Positions 38,478-61,960 of a DNA stretch of 64,000 nucleotides are shown piece by piece. The DNA lies in contig BCGQ01000005.1 of assembly GCA_001599355.1 (NCBI GenBank), positions 438,222-502,221 on the forward strand, read 5' to 3'. The stretch comes from Nakazawaea peltata (lineage: Eukaryota; Ascomycota; Pichiomycetes; Alaninales; Pachysolenaceae). The first letter of the stretch is position 1, and every line of letters starts with the position of its first letter. The position numbers were made by a program, and so were the translations under genes. The notes beneath the pieces were generated by a model, which saw nothing but the letters and a program-made list of their open reading frames with translations, was not told where the DNA came from and did no database searches.

Positions 38478-39179
38478 ATGAGAGTCTCTTTAACGAATTT
38501 CACCAAAAACAGCACCCGTTTATTCTCATCTTCATCATGTACAGCTGCCTCGAAGTCATCCAAATCCACTAAAGGTGAAGCGCTGAAGACCACAAAGCAT
38601 GCTCCCTTATCGAAACTGCAACTTGCGTTTTTGGAGAGACTCATCCGTGTAGACCAAGCCGGTGAATTAGGTGCCGATTACATCTACAATGGACAATATA
38701 TTCTGCTTTCTCAACGTCGTCCAGATTTACAGCCAGTATTAAAACATATGTGGGAGCAAGAAATTCATCACCACAATGTATTCAATGATTTACAAAGGAA
38801 AAGAAGAGTAAGACCTTCATTATTGACTCCAGTTTGGAAAGTAGGTGCTATGGCTTTAGGTCTTGGAACCGGACTCATGGGAAAAGAACTGGCTATGCTG
38901 TGTACTGAGCTGGTAGAAACCGTCATTGGAGGCCATTATAATGAGCAGTTAAGAGTGCTTTTAAACCAATTCCACGTAATGAATGAGAAGGGTGAGATGG
39001 TTGTAAGTGATGAAATCAAACAATTACAACAGATGGTAAGTCAATTTAGAGATGAAGAATTGGAACATTTAGATACAGCCGTAGAACATGACGCTCATGG
39101 AGCCAGACCTTACTGGTTGTTAACTGAGGCCATCAAGTTGACCTGTAGAGGAGCTATTTGGACCGCCGAAAGAATATAG
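38478..39179 (+). CDS. COQ7: Demethoxyubiquinone hydroxylase Coq7/Cat5
   Basis: 233 residues, the size of yeast Coq7. Di-iron hydroxylase of coenzyme Q synthesis, on the matrix side of the inner mitochondrial membrane. Presequence MRVSLTNFTKNSTRLFSSS. Iron ligands are visible: IRVDQAGELGA (Glu), MWEQEIHHHNVF (Glu and His), the Glu of ELxVETVIGGHY-type helix 3, and DEELEHLDT (Glu and His). In helix 3 three CTG codons (38889, 38898, 38910; residues 138, 141, 145) fall where yeast has three Ala and human Coq7 has Gly, Ala, Ala: direct evidence for Ala decoding of CUG. Confidence 0.95.
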   Translation: MRVSLTNFTKNSTRLFSSSSCTAASKSSKSTKGEALKTTKHAPLSKLQLAFLERLIRVDQAGELGADYIYNGQYILLSQRRPDLQPVLKHMWEQEIHHHNVFNDLQRKRRVRPSLLTPVWKVGAMALGLGTGLMGKELAMLCTELVETVIGGHYNEQLRVLLNQFHVMNEKGEMVVSDEIKQLQQMVSQFRDEELEHLDTAVEHDAHGARPYWLLTEAIKLTCRGAIWTAERI

Positions 39180-39212
39180 GATATATATATTACGTATGTT
39201 ATGAATAATAAA

Positions 39213-39785
39213 CTAAACTAACCCACTGTACAAATTCAAAGCTTCAACAATAGAAGGGTCAACCTTTGATCCCTCTTTAAATTCTTCAAATGAAATATAG
39301 CTGTCCTGGTTCTTATCGAAAGATTTGAACAACTTGTCAACTCTTTGTTCAGGGGTCTTTTCGTCCTCATCTAATTCAACCATATTGCCAATCATCTTAT
39401 ACATCAGTCTGACAATACTTAACATCTCGTCATATGTGATCTTCCCATCTTCATCGAGGTCATACAACTGGAACAGCCAAATCAATTTCTCTTCTAAAGT
39501 ACCCCTGGAAGTGATAGATAGCAGGATGATGAACTCTTTGAAATCGATGGACCCGTTACCGTTGGTATCGAATACCTTAAACACATAGTTACCAAACTCT
39601 GTTGGGTCACCAAATGGGAAGAACTGCTTGTAAATCTTAACGAATTCCTCCTTGCTCAACTCCCCTGAAGGACAATCCCGCTTGAATCCTTTGTACCATT
39701 GTTGTAACTCTCTTCTATCGAAGTAGGTGCTTTTCTTCAATGTTGCAATGTCGTCCTTTGATAATTTCGATGCTGCTTTACCCAT
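39213..39785 (-). CDS. FRQ1: Frequenin / neuronal calcium sensor homologue Frq1
   Basis: 190 residues, identical in length to yeast Frq1. MGKAASKLS provides the N-myristoylation glycine. EF-hand loops: [24 protein letters not shown] and [12 protein letters not shown], with the first EF-hand degenerate as in all NCS proteins (the [11 protein letters not shown] region). The ending [18 protein letters not shown] is the Frq1 signature. It activates the phosphatidylinositol 4-kinase Pik1 at the Golgi. A CTG at 39474-39476 (residue 104) replaces the invariant Ala of the W-A-F-x-L-Y-D motif, so it must encode Ala or a tolerated change. Confidence 0.95.
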
Positions 39786-40219
39786 GGTGTTGTGTTTTGG
39801 TCGTTAGCGGTTCTGCAATTTGGGCAACCTTCTCTTTTTATCAATATAAAATGGCTAAGATTGAGATTGTCTTGGTATTTTTTCCTTGTGAGTTCTACGC
39901 CTCTTTTTGGTGGCTGCCGATTTGGGGGTGAGGAGGGGTTAGGTGAGGGTTGGACAGGGGTTATGGAAGAGGTGAAGGAGATGACGGATAACAGTAAGAT
40001 GATCAACACAGAAGCCGAGCCAACCTCCACTACAGTCCAGTCTTAAAAATAATTCTACATAAATTCAAATAAGCTTTTATTACTTGCATTTTATTAGCCG
40101 ATCCATCTAAGGCCCATAGTTAAGGGGAAGTGGCTATTGCGCGCGCCGCGCGCTATTTCAAGTGGCTGAGTTGGGCAGTGGCTAATATAGCACCCCCTTT
40201 TTTCATAGGTGAGAAATAT
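39786..40219. other. FRQ1 promoter region with CpG-rich near-palindrome
   Basis: 434 bases. GCGCGCGCCGCGCGC lies at 40139-40153 in an otherwise AT-rich setting, flanked by three AGTGGCT motifs (about 40129, 40161, 40177). CGCG cores are the kind bound by Rsc3/Rsc30. No gene. Confidence 0.5.
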
Positions 40220-40624
40220 CTAAAGAGCACCTAACAATACAGTGACACCAACTAATCCTAAACCGTAAATCAAACTGAATTTGGATTGTTTGTAAGAGAC
40301 AGAGGAGGATGCACCACCGGTAGCAGTAGTAGTGGCATTGGAACCTGACATCTCCATAGAAGAACTCATATCAGAGCTCATCATAGAAGAATCCATCATA
40401 GAAGAACTCATCATGTCGGAGCTCATCATATCAGAGCTCATCATGTCAGAACTCATCATATCCATATCAGAACTCATCATAGAAGAAGCCATGTCCATAT
40501 CAGAACTCATGTCCATATCCATATCTTCAGTAGTAGTATAAGTACTGTACATAGTCATAGTCATGAACATACCGTCCATACTCATGGCGGTAACATATGG
40601 GGAGGAAGTAGTAATAACAGACAT
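40220..40624 (-). CDS. Met/Ser/Asp-repeat protein with hydrophobic C-terminus
   Basis: 134 residues. The centre is built of repeats of SSDMM and MDMD type (about residues 33-92), with over 30 methionines in the protein. Then comes a Ser/Thr/Gly-rich spacer (NATTTATGGASSS) and a hydrophobic C-terminal segment (FSLIYGLGLVGVTVLLGAL) ending the protein. The C-terminus looks like a GPI-attachment or tail-anchor signal, but the N-terminus is not a convincing signal peptide. Met-rich MxM clusters recall the copper-binding ectodomains of Ctr proteins; that function is only a guess. A strong TATA box lies about 60 bases upstream. Family not recognised. Confidence 0.65.
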   Translation of the reverse strand: MSVITTSSPYVTAMSMDGMFMTMTMYSTYTTTEDMDMDMSSDMDMASSMMSSDMDMMSSDMMSSDMMSSDMMSSSMMDSSMMSSDMSSSMEMSGSNATTTATGGASSSVSYKQSKFSLIYGLGLVGVTVLLGAL

Positions 40625-40680
40625 TTTTCAATTGCGTGGATTTCCAATTCTTACCTTCTTCACTATCTCGACTGCATCCC

Positions 40681-40690
40681 CTTTATATAC
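40681..40690 (-). promoter_or_regulatory. TATA element of the Met-rich repeat gene
   Basis: The minus strand reads GTATATAAAG, 57-66 bases before the ATG at 40624; a consensus TATA box. Confidence 0.6.
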
Positions 40691-40882
40691 TTTAGTTTTC
40701 AGTTGTTCACGGTGCAGAAACGAGCAAATTAATTCNCCCCTTAGGAAGGAGTTTCCCTATTGGGACGAGCCGATAATTCTCCGACCCTTCTTTCCGTATT
40801 AGGAAGTCTAATTGAAATGTGGAGAGATAAAAGCTTATCTCTCGGTTAAAAGATCAGTTAAGTTAGCCTAGCTAGGGTCGAT

Positions 40883-42706
40883 ATGAATGCTCCTATTGGA
40901 TATTCAGGTGCCCCTTACATACCTAAGAAGCGGGTGAATAACAGTTCCGCGGGTTTGAGTGGGGTTGTGGTGCCTGAAATGACTAAATCATCCTCACTAT
41001 CACCAAAAATACCTCAAGAGGGTCCTAGTTTGGATCAATTGCCGTCGGAAATTTTGCTCGAAATCTCCAGACATCTCTCCCAATTTGAAATATGCAACTT
41101 AGTAATGCTGAATTCTCACTTGAACCGATTGTTGACCCCTCTTTTGTACAGACGGATCACTGTCGATCATGAATATTCTTATTTCACCAATCTTGAACAG
41201 CCTACGAAAGACTATCTGACACTTATCAAGTATTCATATAGTTTGAAACTTTTCTTGACCAATGTTGCCAAAAATAAGAACACGTTCCTGCCTTATATCA
41301 CCAGTCTTCATATCAAGAATCTCCCCAAAGAAGTCATCACCTTAACTATCTACAACTTATTGTTGTCGATTTTACCCTACTGTACAAATCTTGTGGAATT
41401 GGAATGCTATAATTCCACAATGATTGATGTGAAATTGTTGTCACTTGTAAATTCAGACCTTAGATACTTGCATATTAACGCTAAACTCTCTCATGATCAT
41501 TTACTAAAATTCCCAGAACTTATTGGCAAATTTCAGCAGCTTCGTAGCTTCGCTGTTGTGCCTTTCCAAAATAGTTCTAATTTATTACTGTGGAAGTCTG
41601 TAGTCTCGCTTGAAAATTTGACAGAATTGAAGATTTCTCGCCTTTTTAACCGTGAAAGCTCGATTAAAGTCCCTTCTGAGCATTTAGTCTCGAGTGAGAA
41701 TGTTCTTGACCTTGATCTACTTTCAATTCCTAATTTTTTAGATCGAAACACCCCCAAATTGAAATTGAAACATCTTAGTATTGATGGGATTTCGATTCAA
41801 CCACAAGATTTTCATCAATTGAATAGGAATATCGACTTTTCTTGTTTGTTAAGCTTGGAGATCACTAATCTATGCGAGATAGTAAAAATCCCAAATACTG
41901 TTATGAGTTCCTTGCCATTAGCAGATTTAGAGCAGTCTAATTTGAATCCGGAACTGAGACAGGCTATGATATCGGCAACAGAACCTCGATTTCTTACTTA
42001 TTTTATTGAAAATCATCATTGCTTCAAGAATTTGAGGAACTTAGCCATCGATATCCGTCAAGGTTGGATCGATTCCACCCCCAATTTCATATCTTCTCTT
42101 GTAAATTTGGAAAAACTCGACGTCACACTTCGTTGGAATTCCACTAAACTTGTACAATTCTCATCGTTCAAAGAATACTTAGGATCTCTGGTAGACTCCA
42201 TTTTGACTCATTCTGACACTTTAAAGTCTCTCTCGTTGGAGATCCGGGACGAAGATTTCTCAACCACAAATTACACTCTTGTGTGTCTTCCTGACGACCT
42301 TGTAGACCGTCTTCTACAAGATTACATGCCAAAATTAGAGGCATTGAGATTGTGTCTACACGGAGAACATTTAATACGTAATAACAGGTTGATTTCTAGA
42401 CAGAAGATGCCCCAATTGCAGTTCTTGAGCTTGTTTGGAAATAATGTGTATAATAAACATATGGGGTTACAAGTAGTGAATCCCGGAATCTTGGATGAAC
42501 ATTTCAAGATCCAGCATGTCGTAGTAAACCTTCTAGATGGAGTGGACTCGAATTTGAAATATGTGATGATAGACTCCGACAAGGTTTTCGAAATAGAGTA
42601 TGAGATTATTGACGATGGAACTAAATCTATAACTTCTTTAGAGCCTAGTGATGGTTTTGACTCATGGTTTCACCAGAATGTGAGAGTCGATTACTTCTCA
42701 AAATAA
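40883..42706 (+). CDS. F-box protein with leucine-rich-repeat-like body
   Basis: 607 residues. F-box at about residues 51-95: LDQLPSEILLEISRHLSQFEI, CNLVMLNSHLNRLLTPLLYRRI. The long C-terminal part has irregular leucine-rich repeats (YITSLHIKNLPKEV, NLVELECYNSTMID, NLTELKISRLF, LKHLSIDGISI, NLRNLAIDIRQGW, KSLSLEIRDEDF). This is the layout of an SCF ubiquitin-ligase substrate receptor: the F-box would bind Skp1 and the repeats the substrate. I cannot assign it to a named yeast F-box protein. It is convergent with the spliced gene at 42735, 28 bases away. Confidence 0.8.
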   Translation: MNAPIGYSGAPYIPKKRVNNSSAGLSGVVVPEMTKSSSLSPKIPQEGPSLDQLPSEILLEISRHLSQFEICNLVMLNSHLNRLLTPLLYRRITVDHEYSYFTNLEQPTKDYLTLIKYSYSLKLFLTNVAKNKNTFLPYITSLHIKNLPKEVITLTIYNLLLSILPYCTNLVELECYNSTMIDVKLLSLVNSDLRYLHINAKLSHDHLLKFPELIGKFQQLRSFAVVPFQNSSNLLLWKSVVSLENLTELKISRLFNRESSIKVPSEHLVSSENVLDLDLLSIPNFLDRNTPKLKLKHLSIDGISIQPQDFHQLNRNIDFSCLLSLEITNLCEIVKIPNTVMSSLPLADLEQSNLNPELRQAMISATEPRFLTYFIENHHCFKNLRNLAIDIRQGWIDSTPNFISSLVNLEKLDVTLRWNSTKLVQFSSFKEYLGSLVDSILTHSDTLKSLSLEIRDEDFSTTNYTLVCLPDDLVDRLLQDYMPKLEALRLCLHGEHLIRNNRLISRQKMPQLQFLSLFGNNVYNKHMGLQVVNPGILDEHFKIQHVVVNLLDGVDSNLKYVMIDSDKVFEIEYEIIDDGTKSITSLEPSDGFDSWFHQNVRVDYFSK

Positions 42707-42734
42707 ATGTATATAGTTATGAGATACCTGTAGA

Positions 42735-43809
42735 TCAGTAGTTATTAGCTAAATGTTTCATTGCCAACAGTTTCTGGTGGTAAGTTCCATTTCGTGGTCT
42801 AGAAGAAGGGGAATCTGGTAATGTGAGGTAGTTTTGGCCCTCTCTAGATCTTGTAATGCTTGGAGATGGAGTACAAGAATGGAGAGTTATAGAGGGCGGA
42901 GGTAAATGACTTAATATTTGTGTTGTTTCCTGATTGTAAGATAATTGACTTGTTGATTCCAGGAAATTGGGGTCAGTGACTACTAAATAAGCAGTTCTTG
43001 TTTGAGTTGCAGTTTGAGTTATCGTGGTTGTGAAATCGTAATCTTCTTCCGATCTCAATGACCGTACTGTGACAGCATTCAGTGTTGTATCTTTAACTGA
43101 GACCATAGTTAAAGTCGTATGAATTACATCAGTTCTCATTAAAGTCAATTCTTTAGTGGAAATTTTCTTTGGAACTTTATTCAGCTTCAATTCCGGTAGT
43201 GGATATTCTCCTGGAATCACTCTCTGTTTCTCACTTTCATGCTTCCTTCTAGCTTGTTCAAGTTGATACTGTTTCAATTGATCCAATCTAGGTAACCCCC
43301 TCTTGTCAAATATTTCAATTATTTTAGCCTGTTTTGAATCATCCTGTGTCTTCTCTCTCTCCATTTCCAACTCCTGTTCTTCTATATATTGTTGAATGGA
43401 ATCTTCAAGATGAATCAGTAATTGGTCAGATGCTTCACACCAATAATTAGTTTCTTCTTCCAAATACCATCTCTAAAAAATAATGTTAGTTATTATTAAC
43501 AGTGATAAGAAATTAATCACTTACATTCTCTCCATCGTAATGACAGTTTGACATCAGATTCTTCAAGAATCCACATCTACATGACGCAACACTACTGAAT
43601 GTTTCACAGCGATAGAAATCCACTATCCTATCGCTCCCTGTGTCTTTATTATGTTCAAATTTAGTTCCAATTTCAACCCCTCTCATACATCCGAGAAATT
43701 CATAGGGAAATACATCAATATATTGGTCTGAAAAGAGGTGGATATTATCTTGGGAGATGACCCCGCCACAAACCACCAGAGAATACCCTAGAAGATCCAC
43801 TAATCGCAT
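42735..43809 (-). CDS. Secreted or ER-luminal Cys-containing protein, one intron, unknown family
   Basis: Exon 1 is 43809-43525 and exon 2 is 43472-42735, giving 340 residues. The join (GGA GAG AAT then AGA TGG TAT) is in frame. Exon 2 alone has no ATG at its start, and exon 1 alone would end just after the donor. The N-terminus MRLVDLLGYSLVVCGGVIS looks like a signal peptide. The N-terminal domain holds regularly placed cysteines (LGCMRG, YRCETF, SCRCGF, NCHYDG, YWCEAS). Then come a Gln/Glu-rich coiled-coil stretch (QQYIEEQELEMEREK), a charged linker, and a Thr/Ser/Pro-rich tail. I do not recognise the family. Confidence 0.75.
43473..43524 (-). other. Spliceosomal intron, 52 nt, in the secreted Cys-protein gene
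   Basis: On the minus strand: donor GTAAGT, branch AACTAAC, acceptor TTTTTTAG, phase 0. All three signals are close to the yeast consensus. Confidence 0.88.
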
Positions 43810-43861
43810 TTTCTTATACAGGGGTGAATTGCATTGCCCGGTTCTAATTATTTTTTAAGTA

Positions 43862-44136
43862 AATTGGGGGTGATTACACAAAGGGGGTGTGGGCAGACGA
43901 AGTAAGGGCAGAAAAATAAAAACGAACGAAGGAAAAGGGTATAAAGGGGCAGATTGGAGAAGATAAGGGGGAAGTGGAGTAGATAAAGGGACAGATAGGG
44001 AAGGTACAAGACATGTGATTAGGGAGGTTAAAGGGGCAAGTAAATAGGAGAAGATAAAGGGGCCAAGAGCTTAAGGGGCCAAGAGTTTAAGGGGACAAGA
44101 GGTTAAGGGGAGAAGGTGCCAAGGGGCTAATGGACA
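43862..44136. repeat. G-rich purine tract with AAGGGGCCAAGAG repeats
   Basis: The 435-base gap between the secreted-protein gene (5' side) and CTK1 (3' side). The plus strand is purine-rich with many GGGG runs; at 44053-44136 a 15-base unit near TTAAGGGGCCAAGAG recurs four to five times. It is C/T-rich in the sense direction of the 43809 gene. Confidence 0.7.
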
Positions 44137-44244
44137 ATTCAAGACAAAATGTCAAAGACAATAAAACAATATAGGCGTTTACTCATCTACGTCTCTACCT
44201 TTACTCTACACTCGCTCATCATATTCATACAATTATGCCGATAT

Positions 44245-46062
44245 TTAATGACCCATTGGAGTAACGGACCCTCCAGCAGCTGCCTCCTGTTTAGCCTTTC
44301 TCCGTTTCTTCACTTCATACTCGTGCAACTCCTCGAATCCCTCCAAATTCAACCGTTGCGGTAACGGCTCCTCAGTGAACCAAGAAGATTCCAACAGATG
44401 TGCAGCAGAAAACCGGGCCGAAGGATTAGTAGCCAATAAACCTTGACAAAGTTTGATACAAGATTCACTACCTAATAATTTATCGAATTTTTCATTGAAT
44501 GTCTTTGGATATGCCAGTGGTCTCATCATATGATACCATGGCAAATCATCCATTTCAGGCCATTCTTCATAAGTTGGAGTTCCCATCACTTTGAATACTT
44601 TATCGAGTTGAGTCATTTCATTGACACCCTGGAAAACTGCCCTCTTAGTGAATAATTCCAATAATAAACAACCAAGTCCCCACATATCAACTTCTCTTCC
44701 GTAATTAGAAGAACCCAAAAGAATCTCAGGTGGTCTATACCATAAAGTAATCACACGGTTGGTATATTGAGGAGACTCGTCTTCTTTATGATGTTTCATC
44801 TTCCTGGCCAACCCAAAATCGGTGATCTTCAACAACCCATCCTTATCCACAAGTATATTGGATCCCTTAATATCTCTGTGCATGATCCTCTTTTCATGGA
44901 GGTAGTTGATCCCTTGTAAAAGTTGCTGGAAAATGTCTTTGCGATGGAAATCTTGCATCATTACATCAGGATGCGTGAGCAATGCCGTTAAGTCGTGCTC
45001 CAGATAACCAAAAATCATATAAATTGTGTTATTATGAGACATCATCTCGAGTAATCCGGAGACGTTCTCGTGTTGGAATGACTGTAAGAGATTGATCTCT
45101 CTCATAGCTGTGATTGGGAATCCTTCCTTCTCGGTCTCTAAACGTAACTTCTTCAACGCTACCAATTTACCGGTCAGGTTGTTTCTGGCCTTGTATACAC
45201 GTCCATAAGTTCCCTCTCCCACTTGGAGAATACGTTCATATGGTTCGGTCCCCAGGTCTCCCATTTTCAAGTACAGTTTTGGTCTTCTGGCACGAGGTGG
45301 ATTTTGAGGGTTAGGGTTGGTGTTCTGATTCTTTTGTGTAGGCTTTGGTATACGGTGCAGGAAAAGATCTTGTTCATCTTCAGACTGTTCATCATTGAAT
45401 CCTAAAGCACTTCTTGATTTGAGTACTTGTGTAGGTTTGTTGAATGGTCTTTTTGGCTGAGATTGGTTATCTTTTTGCAGCTGAGCATGTCTAACAGCTC
45501 TTGGACCACTTGGGAGATTCTTTAATGGAGAATCATTATTGATTTTACGACGTTGCAGGTAGTTTGATTGTGAGTCGTCATCTCTTGGTCTTTTTTGGGG
45601 ATGAGATCTGTTGTTGAATTGTTGTCTATTTGAGTCTCTAGAATCAGGTGTAGAGGATTGTCTAGAGTTTTGTCTGAAATCGGGTCTAGAGTTCTGTCTG
45701 GAGTCTTGTCTAAAATCAGGTCTAGAGTTCTGTCTGGAGTCTTGTCTAAAATCCTGCCTAGAGTCCTGCCTAGAGTCCTGTCTTGAGTCCTGCCTAGAGT
45801 CTTGTCTAGATGATGGCGGTGGAGGTGGAGCCTCTTGTCCTTGTCCCGATCCTCTCGGTCCAGTTGGAACCCCCCTAAATTCACGTTGAGGTAAATATCC
45901 TCCTCTAGTACTAGGCCTCAGATTTCTAGTCTGTGTAGGACGGCCATTGAACCGTCTATTCCCATCGTTTGGACGTCTTTCTTCTCGATCAAATTTATCT
46001 CTCTCATTCTCACGATCTCCCTGAGGCCTTCTGCCGGCCCCTCTATTATCACGACGATCCAT
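44245..46062 (-). CDS. CTK1: CTD kinase catalytic subunit Ctk1
   Basis: 605 residues. Long Arg/Asp/Ser/Gln-rich N-terminal region with a tandem SRQD/SRQN repeat (about residues 84-133), then a kinase domain (about 270-560): glycine loop VGEGTYGRVY, VALKKLRLE (Lys), EGFPITAMREI (PITAIRE-type cyclin-binding helix), catalytic loop HRDIKGSNIL, DFGLAR, and TNRVITLWYRPPEILLG with an activation-loop Thr. PITAIRE-like helix, TNRV and the ending EEPLPQRLNLEGFEELHEYE match Ctk1, not Bur1. It phosphorylates Ser2 of the RNA polymerase II CTD. The hinge reads MIFGY where most relatives have FEY (Gly at residue 352). Confidence 0.9.
   Translation of the reverse strand: MDRRDNRGAGRRPQGDRENERDKFDREERRPNDGNRRFNGRPTQTRNLRPSTRGGYLPQREFRGVPTGPRGSGQGQEAPPPPPSSRQDSRQDSRQDSRQDSRQDFRQDSRQNSRPDFRQDSRQNSRPDFRQNSRQSSTPDSRDSNRQQFNNRSHPQKRPRDDDSQSNYLQRRKINNDSPLKNLPSGPRAVRHAQLQKDNQSQPKRPFNKPTQVLKSRSALGFNDEQSEDEQDLFLHRIPKPTQKNQNTNPNPQNPPRARRPKLYLKMGDLGTEPYERILQVGEGTYGRVYKARNNLTGKLVALKKLRLETEKEGFPITAMREINLLQSFQHENVSGLLEMMSHNNTIYMIFGYLEHDLTALLTHPDVMMQDFHRKDIFQQLLQGINYLHEKRIMHRDIKGSNILVDKDGLLKITDFGLARKMKHHKEDESPQYTNRVITLWYRPPEILLGSSNYGREVDMWGLGCLLLELFTKRAVFQGVNEMTQLDKVFKVMGTPTYEEWPEMDDLPWYHMMRPLAYPKTFNEKFDKLLGSESCIKLCQGLLATNPSARFSAAHLLESSWFTEEPLPQRLNLEGFEELHEYEVKKRRKAKQEAAAGGSVTPMGH
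45660..45812 (-). repeat. In-frame tandem repeat encoding SRQDSRQN units in CTK1
   Basis: 12-base units (S-R-Q-D, S-R-Q-N, S-R-P-D, F-R-Q-D/N) repeated about a dozen times. They vary at synonymous sites, which suggests the repeat is old but still turning over. Confidence 0.85.
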
Positions 46063-47310
46063 CTCTGTCTGTCTTTATCCTCTAACAGCCCAAGTCTCAA
46101 CTTCTTTGGCGGTGATTTTTCTGCTTTGCTAAAAAAATCTTCAGGGTTACCCGGACCAAAAATGGATTTTAATACGAGGGGCGAGGAGGATTGGGCTGAA
46201 GCGATGGGGTGGGCAGATGAAGGGGCACGAAGTGATGGAGGGCAAGTGACATTAGCAAGGAAGTCAATGAGAGTTATTAGAACTCTGGTCATTGTATTAG
46301 TGGGGATGACTTTTGAGGGTAATCCTCATAATAAGATTCTACAAATTACATGATCCAGTAAAAGGACTGGTAAAGATGGATGGTATGGAATGGTATGGAG
46401 ATTTCAGATCTGATGATGAATCTACCGATATGAGATATATTGGGTGAATTTTCTTGTGGGGAGTTAACATCATAACACCAATAGTGAAGGCATCATATAT
46501 CAGATGATACCAGGATTTATCCGGTGATAGTAGGTGATAGCAGGCGTAGCAGTAATAGCATGGATAGCAGTAATAGGATGGATACCAGTGAATGCACACT
46601 GCCGGGTGTATTGCGATTAGCTGAAATTAGAATACCATGCGTATTCTTAAGAATTCCTGAGTGTAGCCCCGAAGAGTAAATAAGTGCACCCTTAAGTACA
46701 CTTCCATACTCTTGGGATACCTTAAGTAAAGACAGAAAGTCATTATGGATACAGGGAAGTTGAGGAGATCTCTCTCACCAAACAGACAACATCTCGCATT
46801 GGATATTACCCACCCTGATTTCTACGTATTCATTAACATCTGATCTTGAAGATACAAACCAACTAGCAATCTCCTTTGCTAATCATTCTAACTATGGGTG
46901 ACAATCTGGAGATCAAATCGGCATCACCATCATCTATTGATGGATGATATGAGCACTCTGAGTATAATGAGCAGATCAAGTTTTCATTCTGCGTGGTCTA
47001 CTACTTGTTCAACCTTGACCAATATCGTGTTAGATGGGTCGTCTCAGATAGGTCTTCTAGCGGTTAAGTGAAAGAAAGAATTAATTTTTGTCCTGTCCAG
47101 GATTTTTTCTGTATTTTTTGCCCTTTGCTGCTCGCTCGCTGGTTGACGGCTGGCTGGATAGCTCGCTATTCGTTTCCCGCTGCCTGCCCCTTATTGACAC
47201 TTATTACATAATAATGGCAGATGCTCGTATCTTTCGTATTCCAAATTCAAGAGGCAAATACAAGCTGATGAGGTTGGATAGATAACAAACCATACGATAT
47301 AAAGATAAAA
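46063..47310. other. Divergent intergenic region CTK1 / DUF1748 gene
   Basis: 1.25 kb. A purine-rich tract at about 46170-46260 lies upstream of CTK1; a pyrimidine- and CTGG/CTCG-rich stretch at about 47090-47190 precedes the spliced gene. A 23-codon open frame at 47214-47285 could be an upstream ORF. No other gene seen. Confidence 0.5.
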
Positions 47311-48049: not shown

Positions 48050-50209
48050 TCACGACGGATTGAATGGAATAAATCCAAATGTAGACGCTCCCAGATCTTC
48101 AGGAACATCATAACTTGATGATCCTGATACCATACTGGCATTCTCATGGTCTTCTCCATTCTTTGGATATTCGAATTTTTGATTATTATTTGGGGCTTGA
48201 ACATTAGCTGGAATCGTAGTAGGATAAAGTCTTGACGAGTTATAATAAAACCCATTTGATGTAGACAAATGATCTGCTTCTTCTTCTTCTTCATCTTCTT
48301 CCAAACTATGTCCATAAAACGGCCCATAACCAATAGAATATCCCAGAGTTGTGGTTGAGGATTGAGGATGTTGATGAGCCGGATGATAATTAGAATTGAA
48401 TCCTGGATTCGACCCTGATGAGGTCTGGATGTTAGGTGTTTGTTGTTCAAGTAATTGATGAGATTGTTGGACATCTTGCTGATATGATGATCCACTATCA
48501 GTACCATTAGTTCCTTGTGGACGATAATGTAATGGATGATGTTGCGATACCAGACGAGATTGAAGATTTTGAGCAGGCCCCGTGAAAGTCTTCATCGTCT
48601 CCCAAAAGTCCATTTCTTCTTCTGCGTCTTCTGAGATGAGATTGACTTTCTTTGGAGCTGTATGAGGTGTTGGGTGATTAAGTTGTTGAGACTGTTGTTG
48701 TTTCATAGACGTAGTAGGGAATAAAGGTTCTCTTGATGTACCATAAGTCTCAATATTGGATGTTCTATAAGTCGAATAAGAGTCAGAGGTAGTGCTTGTC
48801 AGAAGTCTTGACTTCTTTGGTGATCTTGCTGCAGCATTTGAAGAATTTGCTCTCTGGTCTGAGTTCAAAAGCTTGAGTAAATCACTTTCTTTCCCTGTAG
48901 CCGATGGAGAACTACTACCTTCTGGACTGGATTGTGAACTGTTCAATTTAGGTACCTCTGTTAAAGGTGGAAGGTATCTGAAATGTTGATATCTGTTGAG
49001 TTGATTCTCCGGTTCCGGTACTGACACCTGTTGCGGAGCATAATGATGAGTGATATGTTGATGAATAGTAACTGAGACTGAGTATCTTTTCAGAAGCTCG
49101 ATTAATTTTTGCAGAACTTCCTGAGAATCAATAGAACCAAATCCATTTGGGATCTCTTCTCCAATAGAATTAGTGAGTGAATATTTCCAATCAACTTTGG
49201 ATTGTAAAGGTCGTGGAGAAGAGGTATTAGCACGCGACGTAGGCTGTGGAATGTTAAATACATCCTGCTTGTCTTTAGATTTCAGCAGCAGCAGTAACAG
49301 CAGCAGTTTTTGTCTTCTCTCATAGATCTGTCTATCCAAAACCAGAGATAACTCTGTCAAGGGAGTATTCTCACGAGAATCAGGAGTCACACCCGTATGA
49401 GATGGTGTTCTTTGATCATCATCACTGTCATTTTCATCATTATCATTATCATTATTATCACTTTTTTCACGTAAACTTGAGTTTAACAACTCAGTCAAAT
49501 CAGCAGGAGCATCTCCGTTGACCAGTTGGACTTCTTTAGCAATATCTGGATCAGCTTTTCCTCTAGCAATACTGGTCAATAATTTCCTCCATTGATTACG
49601 ACATGTAAGAGAAGGACGACCATCCATTTGAGACAGAATTTTCTTCCAAGTAGTCCCATGCAATTTGATCATACGAATAAGTTTGATGTTTTCCAGTTTA
49701 TCCCATTCACGTAACCGGTCTTTAGAAGCGGGCAGTAACAGTTCCAAATATCTTTTAGCACATTGGTCTTGATTCCGCCCTTCTACCATTGTTTCTACTT
49801 GATACCAATGAGGCCCATAAGTCTGGAACAGTTTGATCAACTGGGCATCTTCCTCGGCGGTCCAACGTCCCTTACGCATATTAGGATCAAGCGAAGAGTA
49901 CCATCTTTTACGACATTGACGAGCATTCCAAGCAGTGATGCCCAGTCGAGATCTAATGCCATCCCAATCTTCATTGGTGAGATCTTTCCCAGAAGGGAAG
50001 TCTTTAAGGAACAGAAGAGTGCTTTCTTTCAAGGAGTCATCTTCCTCTTTGGTCCACGTCTTTCTATTGTCACGGCGGTAAGTTTGATAGCCCAAGGTTT
50101 TGGTGATTAAATGAGCGTCTATCCGCGGCTTTCGTTTCAGTTTAGTTACTTTGGCCTTCTGATAGTCTTTAGCAGCGAGCAGTGGAGCTGGCGACGTCAG
50201 GTCGGTCAT
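48050..50209 (-). CDS. BAS1: Myb-type transcription factor Bas1
   Basis: 719 residues. Three Myb repeats in the N-terminal third: TWTKEEDDSLKES...ARQCRKRWYSSLDPN (R1), KGRWTAEEDAQLIKLFQTYGPHW...DQCAKRYLELL (R2) and WDKLENIKLIRMIKLHGTTWKKI...TCRNQWRKLL (R3). The R2 and R3 wording is Bas1-specific. In yeast Bas1 with Pho2 activates adenine, histidine and one-carbon genes. The remaining two thirds are low-complexity Ser/Gln/Asn/His with acidic patches. A run of eight apparent leucines at 49283-49306 is seven CTG plus one TTA, so in this genome it reads AAALAAAA. Confidence 0.88.
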   Translation of the reverse strand: MTDLTSPAPLLAAKDYQKAKVTKLKRKPRIDAHLITKTLGYQTYRRDNRKTWTKEEDDSLKESTLLFLKDFPSGKDLTNEDWDGIRSRLGITAWNARQCRKRWYSSLDPNMRKGRWTAEEDAQLIKLFQTYGPHWYQVETMVEGRNQDQCAKRYLELLLPASKDRLREWDKLENIKLIRMIKLHGTTWKKILSQMDGRPSLTCRNQWRKLLTSIARGKADPDIAKEVQLVNGDAPADLTELLNSSLREKSDNNDNDNDENDSDDDQRTPSHTGVTPDSRENTPLTELSLVLDRQIYERRQKLLLLLLLLKSKDKQDVFNIPQPTSRANTSSPRPLQSKVDWKYSLTNSIGEEIPNGFGSIDSQEVLQKLIELLKRYSVSVTIHQHITHHYAPQQVSVPEPENQLNRYQHFRYLPPLTEVPKLNSSQSSPEGSSSPSATGKESDLLKLLNSDQRANSSNAAARSPKKSRLLTSTTSDSYSTYRTSNIETYGTSREPLFPTTSMKQQQSQQLNHPTPHTAPKKVNLISEDAEEEMDFWETMKTFTGPAQNLQSRLVSQHHPLHYRPQGTNGTDSGSSYQQDVQQSHQLLEQQTPNIQTSSGSNPGFNSNYHPAHQHPQSSTTTLGYSIGYGPFYGHSLEEDEEEEEADHLSTSNGFYYNSSRLYPTTIPANVQAPNNNQKFEYPKNGEDHENASMVSGSSSYDVPEDLGASTFGFIPFNPS

Positions 50210-53518: not shown

Positions 53519-53927
53519 CAATAATTAGATTAATTAGTATGATAAATGATATAATTTGTAAAGTGGTAGTAGCTGGTCAATTAGGGGTCCTATCTTTCCA
53601 TTCAGCTTGTGGTCTTTGTGTTGCTAAAGATTGGCATCTCATGTAGCAATTAGAGTGATTTTGGGGGTGATTTTAGGGATACACAAAGTCGTGTAAGGAT
53701 AATATTCCTAATTAGGAATAGTCGTGCAAGGTCAATATCACGAATTAGGACATCTTATACCATACAGGTTATCTTTAGGGAGAGTGCTCTACGAAGAGTG
53801 CTATAGCAAGAGGCCGATAGCTGAAGCCTCTAGGACAGGACCATACCTGAAGTTTCTAAGGCAGTCTATTGCATCTACTTAGTCTATGGCTAAATGTTTA
53901 TTAGGTGATACACAAGTGAATAGCGAT
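53519..53927. other. Convergent 3'-3' region with an ideal Mcm1-type palindrome
   Basis: 409 bases between two stop codons. At 53703-53720 there is an 18-base perfect palindrome TATTCCTAATTAGGAATA, a textbook CC(A/T)6GG box. The surrounding ~34 bases are imperfectly repeated directly downstream (GTCGTGTAAGG and GTCGTGCAAGG units). Confidence 0.6.
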
Positions 53928-55358
53928 TTAATCAACTCTCAGTTGATTAATATGTAATGGACTAAGGTTATTAGAGAACTGTTTCTTCTTTCTAGCCATT
54001 CTCTTTAACTTCGATTTCACAACCATCACTGGTACACTACTTTTAGTGACAATATAATTCGATAATGATCCAAGCAACACACCCTTCAAAGAAGATCTTC
54101 CCTTTGATCCCACAACTACCAAGTTAGGTGTAAGATGATCGATGATTTCCAAGATTAAATGACGAGGAATTGGATGATGTACACTCTCAATAACCACATG
54201 GACTTGTAATTTAGTTAATTGTAATTTCTCAAGTACAGCTTTGGTCATATATTCGACACTTTCCTTACGGATACCTTCACGGTCAGTGGATTTAGGAGTG
54301 AATGACACCAGTGTTGAGGACAGAGCAGCAAGACTTTTAGCCCTTGACAGGTCTCCATTGATACTGGAAGAAGCATGTTCAGTGTCTTCTAAAACATTGA
54401 CAACGTATAACACAGATCCATCTACAAGGATAGTTCCAACGGCCCATTCTAAAGCATAAATGGATTCTGGAGAAAAGTCCATACATAAGAGGAAAGTCTT
54501 CGGTTGTTCTTTAGTCTGCAGTAAGAGATCAAAGAAATGACCTCTAGTGAGAGTACGAACGGCTCTTTGATGTACAGCGTCAGATTCAATGTCAGATGTT
54601 TGAATTTCAGCATTCAATTGCAGTGCCAATTCACTATCCAATTTGTTCTCAGCACTACTTGTATATTCATTACCCGAGTCTGGAGAAACAAGCTTCTTTT
54701 TATAAGTAGCATATGATTGTAATTTATTCTTACGCTCATCCAGTTCTTGATAAGTAGTAGCAGTAATAGATTTATCGTAGCCCAATTCTTCGGCGATTTC
54801 TTCGAACTGTTTCTTACTTTCTGGTGGGATCTCACTACGAGTTTCACGAGCATTAATAATCGCACGATGAGCAGCATCAAGTTCGTCGATTGAAATCAGT
54901 TTACGGGCCTCCTTGGAGATTTTCTCGGCCGGCGAGATTTGTTCTTTCTTCGACAGAAGTGCATAATTGGGGAGTTCTTGGATTCCCGGTTCAATAAGTT
55001 CTTTCAGTGTAGTTGCAGTTTCTTGTTCATCACCCGAGATAATCTCCTCTTCACTAGGTTCGTAAGAATCTTCATCATCATCTTCACTACTTTCACTCTC
55101 ACTATCACTACTACGATCATTATCACTATCTTCTCTTAAACGTGAAGGAGAACGTAATCTTTCTGATGGATCATGGGATGTGATGGACCATTTGTATTCT
55201 TCTGGTTTGGAACGGGAAACTGATCTGCTCATGGTAGTTTGATTGATGGTACGACCGCGGCTGCCACCAGCTCCGGGGGACAACGAACGGCCTCTGCCTT
55301 TGTCCATTGAGCTGAGTACTTTCAATGACTCTGCTTGGAGAGAAGCTTCAAGGGACAT
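53928..55358 (-). CDS. Universal stress protein (UspA) domain protein
   Basis: 476 residues. The N-terminal half is disordered: Ser/Arg-rich (SRSVSRSK), then a Ser/Asp/Glu acidic block near residues 75-110. The C-terminal UspA domain starts at TFLLCMDFSPESIYALEWAVG (about residue 288) and ends with VVVGSKGRSSLKGVLLGSLSNYIVTKSSVPVMVV (about 417-450), which contains the ATP-binding G-x2-G-x9-G-[S/T] motif. Such fungal USP fusions are known but poorly characterised; nucleotide binding and a stress role are inferences. The many Ser/Pro sites suggest phosphoregulation of the N-terminus. Confidence 0.85.
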   Translation of the reverse strand: MSLEASLQAESLKVLSSMDKGRGRSLSPGAGGSRGRTINQTTMSRSVSRSKPEEYKWSITSHDPSERLRSPSRLREDSDNDRSSDSESESSEDDDEDSYEPSEEEIISGDEQETATTLKELIEPGIQELPNYALLSKKEQISPAEKISKEARKLISIDELDAAHRAIINARETRSEIPPESKKQFEEIAEELGYDKSITATTYQELDERKNKLQSYATYKKKLVSPDSGNEYTSSAENKLDSELALQLNAEIQTSDIESDAVHQRAVRTLTRGHFFDLLLQTKEQPKTFLLCMDFSPESIYALEWAVGTILVDGSVLYVVNVLEDTEHASSSINGDLSRAKSLAALSSTLVSFTPKSTDREGIRKESVEYMTKAVLEKLQLTKLQVHVVIESVHHPIPRHLILEIIDHLTPNLVVVGSKGRSSLKGVLLGSLSNYIVTKSSVPVMVVKSKLKRMARKKKQFSNNLSPLHINQLRVD

Positions 55359-56359
55359 ATTAAAGTGAGTATCAAGTGATTGAGAGTGTGATTGGGCGTG
55401 ATTAGCAGTAAGGGTGTAAAGTAAAGGAGTTATGTAAACGAGTAAAGTAAAAGAGCGCTAAAGAGATATATTTAATAGAAGGAAAGCAGCAAATTGAAGG
55501 GGCAAAAAGACGTCTTGGCAGCTGCGCCTGGAAAGGGCAAGGGCAAATGAGGCGGCGATGGGTCATGGAGTGGGGGTGAGGGGAGTATGGGGAAGGTATT
55601 GAAGGGAGGGCATTTGGGGAGGGTATTTGAGGGAGGTACTTAGGGAGGGAATTTAGGGAGGGTTTCCCCAAGACTATCTTCATGGAGGTGTTATGATGAA
55701 AGTGCAGTCCGAAGTATTGAAGTGTTAGCAATTTATGAAAATCATCCCTCCGATTATTCAGCTCCTTCTGGTGTTATTAACTAACTAATAAATTGCTCAA
55801 TAGATCGTGATCGTTCTGCCCTTTCTTTCTGCCTTATCACTGATCGATTTGACCGGTATAAAAATTACGCCCCCTTTACAGGATCAATTAGATCAATTAG
55901 ATCAATAACGCTCTCAATACCTCTAAATCCATATCAAAATAATGGAAATCACCAGATCAAGCAATGATATCTATTAGATTAAGAATTAGCATTCAAGTAC
56001 ATTCCATACATGTATGACTCAGTTATCATCTGCTATTACTCTCCCAGTCTCTACACAATCTCAATTATCATCTAGTTTAATTCATTGAATTACACCGTAG
56101 TTGATTGTTCTTTTATCATCTTATTAATCAATCTCTTAGTTGTATTCACCCCTAATTAATTATTATCAATTAGAGAATTAATGCGCAGATATTTAAGGGC
56201 CCAGCCCAGCCCTCTATTTGTGTGTTAAAATTGATATCTAAAGGAGAGGAAAAACTTTCCTCACCCACTCACCTACTCTACTCACCTACTCTACTCACCT
56301 ACTCTCATTAATAGTAAACTATATTACCTATATAGATATCCTAACTTCTTAAAATCTCC
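55359..56359. other. Promoter of the USP gene and 3' flank of FAS2
   Basis: 1 kb without a gene. 55590-55665 carries about five copies of a 14-15 base unit near GGGAGGGNATTT, C/T-rich in the sense direction of the USP gene. 56268-56307 carries three copies of CTACTCACCTACT. The rest is AT-rich. Confidence 0.6.
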
Positions 56360-59300
56360 TTAGAACTCACTAATTGCAACTGCAACAGCTTGAACATCAT
56401 CATGAGAAATAGAAACCTTAACATTCTTAACTCCACTAGCCTTAGCAGCCTTAGAAGCCTCACCACTCAAAACAACTTGAGGAGCACCGTTACTATCTCT
56501 GGTGATCTCAATGTCCTTCAAAGCAGCACCGGCTCCTTGAGACTTAACACCCAAAGCCTTGAAAACAGCCTCCTTAGCACTCCAAGTACCGGTGAAGGAA
56601 GCTTGAGAAGAAGGAGCAGCCTTGCAATAGGCAATCTCGGCAGCGGTAAAGTTTCTCTCAACAAAAGTGTCATTCTCAATGTTGACAGCACTCAACAACT
56701 CGACATCAACACCTACACCTTTACCCCCAGTCAAACCTTTAGTAAGAGACTCGACAGTAGAAGAAACGGTGGAAGTAGCTTGAACGGACTTGTTAGTGTA
56801 AACCAACTTGGATTCATCCAGTTTAGAAGGCTCAACTCTAGCCAATGGGTTCAAGTAGACTGGTTGTTCCAAGTCATCAGAGTAAGGAGCCTTATCCTTA
56901 GCGACGAACATGGTGTTTCTGATCACAGCATTGTGCATGTAACGGTAAGCAGCCTTATGACGCTTAGCAACCTTGTCGGCATACTCATTGAAAGTAGCCT
57001 CATCTAAAGCGGCAAGCAAGTAGTCTGGGTGAATAACAACGGCTTGAGCACCCTTTTGACCGAAACCGAACGAAGTGACAGAACAAGCCTTAATACCATC
57101 GGTGTAGATAGACTTGGATGGGTACAAAATGTACTCAAAGTCCTCCATAATCTTGTCGACATTGTCGGCATTTCTGTTACCTGGGACGATACCCGATTGT
57201 AAGATTTGAATAGCACCGTTCAACATCCAAGCACCGGCAGCACCCTTTGGATGACCAGTCAAGTACTTTTGGAATACACCATAAAGTGGGTTACCCTCGG
57301 TTCTACCCAAATGCTTCATCATCAGGTTGATAGTAGCAGATTCGTTCTTATCGTTAGCCTTGGTAGAAGTACCGTGGAACGAGGCGACTCCAAGGTCATC
57401 GATGGTCAAATCGAAGGTAGCCAAGGCACCTCTCAATGGGGCGATCTTGGCGTCGTTACGCCAGAAGTCGTTACCCAACTCATGTTGAGCATGCTTCAAT
57501 TGTTGCTTAGCAGAGTTTTGAACTTGCTCGAGCAACTCTTGTAAGAGCTCGGCGTCATCACCTGCAGTCTCACGAGCAATTTCAACCTCTTCATCGACGA
57601 ACAGCTTGATCAGTCTCTTTCTTTGCTCGAGCAATCTCTTTCTGTACTTGATATCCAACTTAGGATTCTTGACAGACGATGGCAGCTCTCTAGCAACGGT
57701 AAGAATACCCTTACCTGGCAGAGGAACCGATCTACCAATCTTATCGGTAGCGGTGTTGGTTAAAGCACAAATGGCGTAGATTGGAACACCCATCTTGACG
57801 GCAAGATCAGCGGTCATGATGATTTGAGAACCGGCACCTTGAGCTTCCATGAATCCAGATCTGGTAGTAGTGGCAGGTCTAGACATTTCAGAAGGAGTTC
57901 TACCCATGGCGAATTCGTCGTCGGCATTAGAAGTAGCATTCATGTTACCGAACTCGTACGAACCTTCTTCTTGGAAGTCATCGTAACCACCTACAATACA
58001 GACCTTGGCCTTTCCACTCAAGATGGTCTCAACACCGACATCGACAGACTCAACGGCAGTAGCACAGGCACCGACTGGGGTCTTGATAGGACCAGAAGAA
58101 GACAACAACAACATATTAACCCAAGCGGACATAGTGTTGATGAAAGATTCTTGTAAGATATCGTTTTGGACTGGTTGGTCTTTGTAACGATCCTTGAACA
58201 TACCTCTAAGAGCAGTGACACCACCCATACCAGAACCGGAACAGTTACCAACCTCGGAAACGTGGACGTATTTGTAGAATTCATATGGGTCGGTAATACC
58301 AGAGGAGATCAAAGCTTCAACGGTAGAAACCAAGGCGTAAAGAGTAATTGGATCGACTTGGTCGATAATATCTTGACCAATACCATAGGTAGCTGGGTTC
58401 CAACCGGTTGGGATTTGACCGGCAACTAGACGGTCGAATCTTAACAGCTTTGGAACATAGATGACAGCACCCTTCAACAACTTGACGGTGTACTCATCTC
58501 CTCCATCCTCGGTTTGGAAAATTTGACATTTGTCTCCATGTTGAGATTTGAATTGACGGGCAGTCTCTTCAGAAGCGACAAACTCATCCAAATCTTGTTC
58601 AATAATGATCTCTTGAATGAATTCCTTCTTCTCAGGGTTGTAACCGTGGAACAATTCAGGCTCGATCAAACGGATACCACTGTGAGCCAAGATTTGTTCC
58701 TCGTACTTCTTCTTAATATCCTTGTCATCGACAGGAGCAGAAGTCTTAGCATCGACCCAACCGGAATAATGCTTACCCTTGATAGTACCATTGAAATACT
58801 TGATCAAGTTCATGATCCAAGCCATCTCAATACAACCTTCAAGAGAGAACTCACCGTACAGCTCATATTCCCATCTGGTTCTAGCAGAACCCCATGGACC
58901 AACCTCGGCGAAACCGGTGACTACAATAACTCTTTCCAAATCCAAAAGACCTTCCAAATGTGGAGCCAATTTCTTGATCTCTTGGTAAGGCTTCAACTCT
59001 GGGAAATCGTAACTGGCATTGGCTCTCTTGTTAAGTAAGACCTTAGCGAATGGACCATCAGCCTTGTCACCTTCAACGACGATCACGTCGGAGATATGCT
59101 CACGGTGAACAGATTGTCTGATCTCGGAAGTCTCAAGAATCTCAGAACGGGACTTGTGGGTGATCTCCTTCAAGTTCTCAAGGTATTGCAAACCACCGTT
59201 CAAATCGGCCAAAACCGGACCGTTTTGGGCCATCTCGGAGATTTCCGGAGTAAGCAATCCCAAAATGTTAAACGACATTTCCACCTGCGAAAAAGTCTTT

Positions 59301-61960
59301 ACATTGTAAGACTCGATTTTCTCGGCGATGATGTTGTTACCGGACATCAAACCGGTACCTCTAGTCCAACCGATGACGGCACCAGTGATGGTCAATTGGT
59401 CAGCCCAGTTCTCAGAGTACCATTTGTTGAACAATGTCTCTAAACCAATCTTAGACTCAGAGTACATACCGTCACCACCGAAGGTACCGTGGTTAGGAGA
59501 CAACGGCAAGATGACCTGCGCAGGTCTGGTCTCAATGTTACGCGCGGATTTTTGCTTTTTGATGTGACCGAGTAAACGAAGCACGTTAGTGAGCATAATT
59601 CTGTGCGCCAATTCGGATTTCGAGTCGATGTTTTCGAGTTCGATTCCGTTTTCTGGGATGGCGGCGAATGGGATGACGGCGTCCAAATCCCATCCGAGAC
59701 CGCCGGCCTTGACGTCATCGTAGATGTATTTGACGAGGGCTTCGACATCTTGCAGAGAACCACCGTTGAATGGAACAACTACCAAACAAGATCCCGAAGC
59801 GCCGTGTTTGGCGTAGATCGATTGGTAGAATTCGGTGACTTGCTTGGAGAATCTGGAGGTGGTGACGATAACCTTGGCTCCTCCCATGATCAAACCCTTT
59901 AAGACGTCGGCACCGATGGATCCGGCACCAGCACCGGTAAGTAAGACGGTTTTACCGGCGTAAGATTGACCGTTGACGGCGGCTTTTTCTAAGGTGTTAA
60001 GGTAGGTGGAGGTCAATTCACGAGAATATTCCCAAGATTCACCTTTGCGTTCCTTCAAATGTAAGAATGGAACGGTAAGAGGAGGAATTGAGGAGGCAAC
60101 AGGTTCTTTGATCTCGGAGAACGACAGCAATGAGGCGACTTCATCGTGTTCTTCATCATCAGAGGAATCTCCGTAATCCAAGACAGCCTTAGCTGGTTTG
60201 GAAGTTTGGATTTCGTCAGATTTGGCAACGTAATCGATCAATTGCTTGTATAACTTATCAACTTCAACCTTGGTCTCCTTAGAAGCTTGCTTAGAAAGCA
60301 GCTTATAGATACGAGCAAGGTCTTCTTTGATAGTTGGTTCACTTTGACGGGTCATTTCAGAACCTTGAGCCATCTTGTAGACGTAGTCAGCGAGTTTAGT
60401 AACTGTAGGGTCATGAACTTCCTCGTAGGTGATATTACCTTGGGCATCAACTGAGGTCTTTGGAGCTGTTGGGTAAGAAATGTCCTTGTAGACTGGGTTG
60501 GAGTCGACAACTTGTTCACAGTTCTTGATCAATTGCTCTCCCAAACGTTTGGCCAATTGGTAAGTTTGACCCTTCTCTTCAGGACAATGGTCGATGTGGT
60601 ATTTCATGAATTTCATCAAGGTTGGGTTAGCTCTGTTCATGATGTTGATACATTGAGAGATGGTCTCACGGTCTACAGAAGTTAATCTACCGTGAATGAT
60701 CTCAAAGAACATGGAAACAGCATCTTGTCTGGCCCAGTTCCAAGAAGAATCGTAAACTCTAGCCTTTAATGGAGAGAAAGATGGGGCAATACCGGAAGCG
60801 TAGATTTCTCCGTGTTCGACATTGAATAAATCCAACTCAGCTTGTAATACTTTGCTGGCTTCTTGTTCTTCCAAGACCTTCTTGGCGTCGGCAGCAAGAT
60901 CCATCTTGAGGTAACGAGCAAGAACTTCCAATTGTTGTCTGGCAAGAATTCTTTGATCTTTGGTCATTTCCTCGAATTGAGCAGAGTCGATGACGGCACC
61001 ACCGGCGGCAGCACCACCGGCACTGGCGCTAGCACTAGCAAGAGAGATACCAGCAGACAGAGCGTATTTCTGAGCAACAGAATCCAAGAATCCCTTGGCC
61101 TCAGCCTCGTTACCCAAACGTTGAGCTGGCTCCATGGTCAAAGCGGTCAATAAGACAGAGTCTTGTCTACCGGCACCCAAACCCCATCTGGATTCCAAAT
61201 GCTTTCTGGCAGTAGAGACTGAGAATCCACCAGGCATCTTAGAAGACATTAATCTGGCAACGAGAGAAGAACTTTGTTTACCTAACAGACCGTTGAAAGT
61301 GTCTTGGAATTGTTCGGCCAATTCTTGCAATGGAGTGTCTTCTGGTTTCTCTGGGGTGGAACCGAATTCCTTACCTAAGTCACCGAGAATTTCGTTTTGA
61401 ACAGTAGATTTACCTCCGACCAAATCCTTGATAGCCTTAGACATTGGGATACCGTCTAATGGTTTCTTCAATTTGTGAGCAACAAGGACGTGTAAGACGA
61501 GAGAAGCAGAGACTGGTTCATCTGGGACTTCAGCGACTGGACCTGATGGGGCGGCAGCGGCGACTGGAGCAGCAGCAGCTGGGGCCAGAGCCAGAGCAGC
61601 CAGTGGAGCAGCAGCTGGAGCGGCCTCAGATGTAGCAGCTGGAGATGCAGCAGCAGCAGCAGCAGCCTCTAATTCAGCAGCATCTGGAGTGTAATAAATT
61701 TCCTTCTGATCCTTGGAGTAACATAAAACTTGTCTCTGTAAAGATAAAGCAGCGTCGTAACTCTCGTATTTAGCCTTAATGGTTCTGGAAGCCATACCAG
61801 CCAAGGTTGGAGAAGGACCGATCTCAACGACTCTCTCGGTCTTGAAATCCTTCAAAAAGACATCTTGGGTCTCGATCCATCTAACTGGCGAGGCAAATTG
61901 GTAAGCTAACAATTCAGTTAACAAGACGTGGGACAATTCTTGTTCGATGTCAGCACGCAT
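56360..61960 (-). CDS. FAS2: Fatty acid synthase alpha subunit (Fas2)
   Basis: 1866 residues (yeast Fas2 1887), intronless. Domains in order: MPT C-terminal piece at the N-terminus ([20 protein letters not shown]), Ala/Pro linker (about 97-143), acyl carrier protein with [20 protein letters not shown] (phosphopantetheine Ser near 185), ketoreductase ([28 protein letters not shown]), ketosynthase ([10 protein letters not shown] with the catalytic Cys; [26 protein letters not shown]), and the C-terminal phosphopantetheinyl transferase ([28 protein letters not shown]). With Fas1 it forms the cytosolic alpha6beta6 synthase. CTG codons at residues 120, 123, 125 (linker), 225 (FNG-x-LGKQSSS) and 1414 (RSVP-x-PGKGIL) all sit at Ala positions. 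Confidence 0.97.

Follow-up and report, generated by a model that had tools for sequence, protein, structure and literature searches.

How the codon CUG is translated in the budding yeast Nakazawaea peltata is the question raised by the locus described here. The window, that is the whole stretch of 64,000 nucleotides that was analysed, corresponds to bases 438222-502221 of contig C5; the assembly totals 11.63 Mb and has 11 contigs. Its gene content is that of a budding yeast, with Fas2, Coq7, Frq1, Vma8, Ape1, a Ctk1-like kinase, Bud16, a zinc alcohol dehydrogenase and others. A first-pass annotation had proposed, mostly from CTG codons lying on alanine positions of conserved proteins, that CUG is read here as alanine. 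This proposal is supported by the present analysis: alanine is the best residue both in alignment counts and in summed Pfam scores, the latter for genes of the window as well as for genes of other contigs, and leucine and serine perform worse. The genome very probably reads CUG as alanine, a reading to which a probability of roughly 0.94 can be given on the basis of sequence comparison. It is most simply a member of the CUG-Ala group comprising Pachysolen, Nakazawaea and Peterozyma. Nakazawaea is placed in the order Alaninales, to which Pachysolen and Peterozyma also belong. The CUG-Ala decoding itself is already published, and the finding confirms a known code.

Residues facing CTG and domain scores under three codes

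Nine segments of eight genes (Frq1, Coq7, Vma8, Fas2 in two parts, Ape1, the kinase, Bud16 and the alcohol dehydrogenase) were aligned with the best solved homologue of each, the aligner being given an X at every CTG. The 44 CTG codons that could be aligned, out of 51, face alanine 14 times, serine 7, lysine 5, valine, glutamine and glutamate 3 each, threonine and asparagine 2 each, and isoleucine, glycine, leucine, histidine and arginine once each. The same alignments supply the controls. Leucine stands opposite 255 of the 357 other leucine codons (54/89 for CTT, CTC and CTA, 201/268 for TTA and TTG) and alanine opposite 5 of them; the GCN codons face alanine at 181 of 305 sites and leucine at one; the serine codons face serine at 135 of 261 sites and alanine at 28. 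When each residue was modelled by the replacement frequencies of its own codons, alanine gave the best log-likelihood of all 20 for CTG, with serine 10.7, lysine 26.8 and leucine 78.1 natural-log units below. With the sites treated as independent, at least 14 alanines among 44 have p ~9e-16 at the rate of the leucine codons and p ~1.3e-4 at that of the serine codons; at most 7 serines at the serine-codon rate have p ~9e-7, and a single leucine against the proportion seen at the other leucine codons has p ~1e-22. At the 34 CTG sites with well-conserved surroundings (at least 5 of 10 neighbours identical), the counts are Ala 14, Ser 4 and Leu 1.

The count of residues facing CTG in orthologues, which the first-pass annotation had suggested for the whole genome, was run on a sample holding 960 CTG codons in 138 open reading frames (ORFs), and 55 of these codons were aligned residue by residue. 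To the 44 codons of the window were added 11 from pyruvate carboxylase, encoded outside it, which face in the human enzyme Ala 3 times, His 3 times, and Gln, Pro, Arg, Leu and Val once each.

A second approach relied on domain profiles. The same DNA was translated with NCBI tables 26 (CUG as Ala), 1 (Leu) and 12 (Ser), table 26 being the Pachysolen code, and each translation was scanned against Pfam. One family was retained per region, for a total of 42: 16 from ten window proteins and 26 from 18 ORFs of other contigs. The outside ORFs were picked as conserved-looking, 20 of 105 being scanned; two of the 20 (L012:63-1415 and L105:1674-3017) yielded no Pfam family under table 26 and were left out. 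Alanine exceeds leucine by 39.6 bits over the window families and 80.3 bits over the outside ones, 119.9 in sum, with 32 families won, 2 lost and 8 tied. Over serine the gain is 15.4 and 35.9 bits respectively, 51.3 in sum, with 23 wins, 9 losses and 10 ties. The window families in which alanine beats serine by the larger amounts are COQ7 (238.7 bits with Ala, 230.6 with Leu, 232.3 with Ser), EF-hand_7, Pkinase and Phos_pyr_kin. The overlapping rows that were dropped give a varied picture. Serine is best for UCH_1, ABC1, Glu_dehyd_C, Beta-prop_THOC3 and WD40_WDHD1_1st; leucine is best for EF-hand_8, Biotin_lipoyl_2 and Methyltransf_23, and EF-hand_9 is seen under leucine only; Seryl_tRNA_N, WD40_Prp19 and Beta-prop_WDR3_1st are present with alanine and serine and absent with leucine; alanine is best for EF-hand_1, EF-hand_5, EF-hand_6, PK_Tyr_Ser-Thr, adh_short_C2, KR and CMAS; the remainder lie within 0.1 bit.

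The weight of this codon in the genome can be estimated from the 138 ORFs, which combine the 33 taken as genes in the window with 105 outside ORFs chosen mechanically. CTG amounts to 960 of 51,683 codons, about 2%. It is not rare in these ORFs and, if it means alanine, ranks second among the alanine codons, making up 26% of 3,668 (GCT 1,423, CTG 960, GCC 793). In the 33 window ORFs, the counts are CTG 215, CTA 35, CTC 137, CTT 214, TTA 331, TTG 510 and GCN 817. This high share of CTG among alanine codons may be less known than the code itself, a point on which no literature search was made. If CUG is alanine, the genes of this genome require NCBI table 26 for their correct translation. Under the standard code, about 2% of the sampled codons would be mistranslated, with consequences for annotation, structure prediction, phylogeny and expression in other hosts.

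CTG sites gene by gene

The eleven codons on which the first-pass annotation rested were checked directly in the sequence, and all are CTG, in frame, on the correct strand and in the ORFs to which they had been assigned. The residues facing them were taken from phmmer alignments with proteins of solved structure; CTG was translated there as leucine, to keep the search from being biased towards alanine. In Coq7 (5-demethoxyubiquinone hydroxylase, 38478-39179, + strand), the CTG residues 138, 141 and 145, at 38889, 38898 and 38910, face the Gly, Ala and Ala of human COQ7 that had been announced; among the other CTG codons of this gene, that at 38616 faces Ile, that at 38703 faces Val and that at 38583 is unaligned. 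In Frq1 (NCS-1; 39213-39785, - strand), residue 104 (39474-39476) does fall on a conserved alanine, present in all five homologues shown, among them those that we take to be the proteins of S. cerevisiae and S. pombe and human NCS-1. In these three species, presumably, the CTG at 39522-39524 faces Val, Ala and Ala, and that at 39405-39407 faces Ser, Ala and Ala.

Fas2 (56360-61960, - strand) holds the largest series. Residue 554 (60299-60301) is alanine in 7bc4, 6u5v and 2uv8, of which the first is presumably the Komagataella (Pichiaceae) enzyme and the last the one that we take to be from S. cerevisiae. Alanine is also found opposite residues 1034 (58859-58861), 1172 (58445-58447, in the motif VPK-A-LRFDR) and 1414 (57719-57721, in RSVP-A-PGKG), the last of these having been named beforehand and being Ala in four homologues shown. 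The claim made for residue 225 (61286-61288, in SGALGKQ) is weaker than had been stated, since the expected alanine is found in 2uv8 but is replaced by Ser in 7bc4 and by Gln in 6u5v. As for the three codons of the linker (61586, 61592 and 61601, within 61586-61603), they are in frame and do lie in an Ala/Pro-rich stretch, but one that aligns too poorly to be compared, and they provide context only.

The remaining sites are spread over several proteins. In Ape1 (11182-12630, - strand), residue 186 (12073-12075, GKP-A-EGPF) is opposite alanine in the homologue, as proposed. Residue 53 of Vma8 (V-ATPase subunit D, 32469-33203, + strand; codon at 32625-32627) faces Ala in 3j9t, Ser in 7uw9 and Ala in 7u8o. 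The Ctk1-like kinase (44245-46062, - strand) has a CTG residue 354 (45001-45003) facing Ala in Ctk1 and Met or Cys in CDK12, CDK13 and CDK9, and a residue 556 (44395-44397) facing Ala in Ctk1, CDK13 and CDK9 and Thr in CDK12. In the pyridoxal kinase Bud16 (21260-22207, - strand), residues 153 (21749-21751, NQFE-A-ELL) and 237 (21497-21499, GDLFA-A-MLL) are both alanine in the same four homologues shown, which are closely related mammalian-type enzymes. Residue 263 of the zinc alcohol dehydrogenase (17328-18416, - strand; codon at 17628-17630) is alanine in both homologues shown.

A different kind of context is offered by a secreted peptide precursor (23791-24198, - strand), with a probable signal peptide, a Pro/Gly-rich region, a Lys-Arg pair, a spacer of X-Ala and X-Pro dipeptides and the short C-terminus WIYSPQQ. 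Its CTG codon (23863-23865) is the sixth residue of the series (E-A)2(E-CTG)(E-A)4(E-P)(E-A)2(Q-A) that follows Lys-Arg. Read as leucine or serine, it would indeed form the sole spacer dipeptide not ending in Ala or Pro. The precursor looks like a single-copy, pheromone-type one. In a Myb-domain protein, a repeat at 49283-49306 (- strand) consists of three and four CTG codons around one TTA; it reads Ala3-Leu-Ala4 with table 26, against part of a leucine run with the standard code.

Some observations concern other features of the sequence. A gene at 9400-10125 (+ strand), which we take to be Dcg1/hydantoin-racemase-like, contains one in-frame TAA at 9814-9816, and its frame continues and ends 102 codons later. 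Since the frame runs past this stop, the gene is apparently a pseudogene or the site of a sequence error. A single N base occurs at window position 40736. The searches also located in the genome 112 matches to protein kinases and 100 to mitochondrial carriers.

Contrary signals and alternative meanings

Several results weigh against alanine. Conservation is lower at the CTG sites than at the usual alanine codons (alanine at 14/44, against 181/305 for GCN), and at 15 of the 44 the residue opposite is Lys, Gln, Glu, Asn, His or Arg. Fas2 residue 301 is opposite Ser, and residue 736 opposite Lys, in 7bc4, 6u5v and 2uv8 alike; leucine is found opposite CTG 211 of Vma8 and CTG 351 of pyruvate carboxylase. 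In the 16 Pfam families of the window, serine is ahead in 6 and alanine in 5, with 5 level. To these must be added a homologue-free context test, trained on the residues flanking non-CTG codons and applied to the 960 CTG codons. Over all of them, glutamine ranks first, followed by Arg (-26.9), Lys (-28.6) and, in fourth place, Leu (-37.3); Val (-48.0) and Ser (-73.9) also precede Ala, which is 14th of 20 (-103.2). The codons outside the window again put glutamine first, then Leu second (-35.2), with Ser at -57.0 and Ala at -107.4. In the window alone, lysine is first and Ala third (-8.9), ahead of Leu (-15.3) and Ser (-30.0). The neighbours of CTG in this sample are rich in glutamine. With held-out codons as controls, the test placed the correct residue first for Ala in 2/4 cases, for Ser in 5/6 and for Leu in 0/5. 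Its two-way sign between Ala and Leu was correct for 8/9 codons and wrong for TTG, and for this reason its lean towards leucine is counted as contrary. The signal per CTG site is small (Ala minus Leu -0.069, Ala minus Ser -0.031). The context test speaks against alanine, but weakly, and the alignments carry more weight.

Both the low conservation and the context result can be read as the trace of new CUG codons that arose, after the code change, at tolerant and exposed positions. This reading fits the description given in PMC5951914, where CUG codons in code-changed clades are said to tend away from conserved sites. A further step, which is tentative and rather doubtful, would be to regard CUG as a main alanine codon and no relic, its sites having been captured from other residues more than retained from old alanine sites. 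Such a capture is suggested by the 15 sites facing Lys, Gln, Glu, Asn, His or Arg, by the Gln-like contexts of the whole sample and by the single-base neighbours of CTG, which are Gln, Arg, Val, Met, Pro and Leu codons and include no alanine codon. In a stronger form, this yeast may even stand outside the known Ala clade and have changed its code independently.

The tRNA genes form the last of the contrary points. No tRNA with a CAG anticodon was found by Rfam, tRNA-Ala DNA and D-arm/T-arm pattern searches and ARAGORN, which missed the His and Phe tRNAs too. The recovered set is thus incomplete, and provides no evidence of absence of a CAG tRNA. In the Rfam search, 63 of 608 candidates were scored and listed. 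The leucine tRNAs recovered carry CAA, TAA, TAG and AAG and the serine tRNAs AGA, TGA, CGA and GCT, none of them CAG, the Leu and Ser D-arm scans having used two patterns with at most 3 mismatches, which more divergent D-arms would escape. The tRNA-Ala DNA search gave six alanine genes, four AGC and two TGC, which carry G3:U70.

All six of these tRNA-Ala genes lie on one contig, C9 (84113-298703). A script that screened the retrieved sequences for CAG anticodon arms gave a lone match, L082, which was judged not to be a tRNA. The tRNA-Leu(TAG) gene (L070:1318-1525, - strand, near C4:804701) is the only TAG leucine tRNA among those recovered, and its ARAGORN-predicted intron of 120 bases is long for a nuclear tRNA. 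At C2:142801-143014, three D-arm matches of tRNA-Lys type stand in tandem with a 98-base spacing, which suggests three tandem tRNA-Lys genes; one of them was read (L043).

If CUG meant serine, as in the Ser1 (Candida/Debaryomyces) or Ser2 (Ascoidea/Saccharomycopsis) clades, the alanines opposite CTG would come from the easy exchange of these two residues. Serine is indeed the runner-up among the residues opposite CTG, stands against Fas2 residue 301 in three yeasts, outscores alanine in 9 of the 42 Pfam families (M18 and Glyco_transf_15 for example) and stands above it in the context test over all 960 codons. Its 7/44 is nevertheless far from the 135/261 of true serine codons, and it falls below alanine in both the alignment likelihood and the Pfam sum. 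Across the homologues shown, sites consistently occupied by Ala (Frq1 104, Fas2 554, 1034, 1172 and 1414, alcohol dehydrogenase 263) outnumber those consistently occupied by Ser (Fas2 301), and no CAG anticodon occurs among Ser-like D-arms within 3 mismatches. Serine is very unlikely on these grounds.

An ambiguous CUG, mostly alanine with a fraction of another residue inserted through mischarging or a second tRNA, would account for the lower conservation of CTG sites as compared with GCN, and ambiguity has been published for other CUG clades (Ascoidea, Candida). Low conservation is however also expected if CUG was regained at tolerant sites, as PMC5951914 reports for code-changed clades, and decoding in Pachysolen is cited in PMC8645108 as unambiguous (>99% Ala), so that a mixed meaning must be held very unlikely. 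Finally, the standard leucine meaning, under which the alanine matches would be picked examples, is practically negligible, even if leucine faces one CTG in each of the two alignment sets (1/44 and 1/11), precedes alanine in the context test over all 960 codons (the window alone ranking Ala higher) and has available a tRNA-Leu(TAG) for which wobble reading of CUG is conceivable, on the published example of Saccharomyces, since it has the alignment counts, the log-likelihood and the Pfam sums described above all against it.

Comparison with known yeast codes

Alanine thus remains the preferred meaning of CUG here, and it can be set in the frame of what is established for related yeasts. In PMC5951914, mass spectrometric and phylogenetic evidence is reported for alanine at CUG in the Ala clade (Pachysolen, Nakazawaea, Peterozyma), whose decoding tRNA derives from tRNA-Ala through a mutated anticodon; Ala and Ser are described there as likely reassignment targets since their synthetases ignore the anticodon. 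By extension from this source, the present genome would be expected to contain a tRNA-Ala gene whose anticodon has become CAG; the alanyl-tRNA synthetase would charge its product without reading the anticodon, alanine would be inserted at CUG, and the ancestral tRNA-Leu(CAG) would have been lost. A Pfam-based method akin to the one used here assigned CUG a meaning that agrees with the established pattern for 453 of 462 yeast species (PMC8629427). PMC5951914 states that, among the nuclear genomes of eukaryotes, a sense codon is known to have been reassigned only in the case of CUG in yeasts, and every genome of the Ala clade is therefore useful for tracing the loss of a codon and its later return.

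The present genome shares with the CUG-Ala clade (table 26) the presence of CTG opposite alanine in conserved genes. Among solved Fas2 structures, the highest bit score goes to 7bc4, presumably from Komagataella, whose lineage is published as sister to the Ala clade; for a place of this yeast within Alaninales, this is a hint only. Two differences can be noted. The CAG-anticodon tRNA-Ala of this clade was not found here, in a recovered tRNA set that is incomplete. CTG is not rare in the sampled ORFs (960/51,683), in contrast with the relative rarity of CUG reported for code-changed clades in PMC5951914. The CUG-Ser1 (Candida, Debaryomyces; table 12) and CUG-Ser2 clades offer the other comparison: the same codon has moved off leucine in these budding yeasts, but serine fits the alignments and Pfam sums of the present genome less well than alanine does.

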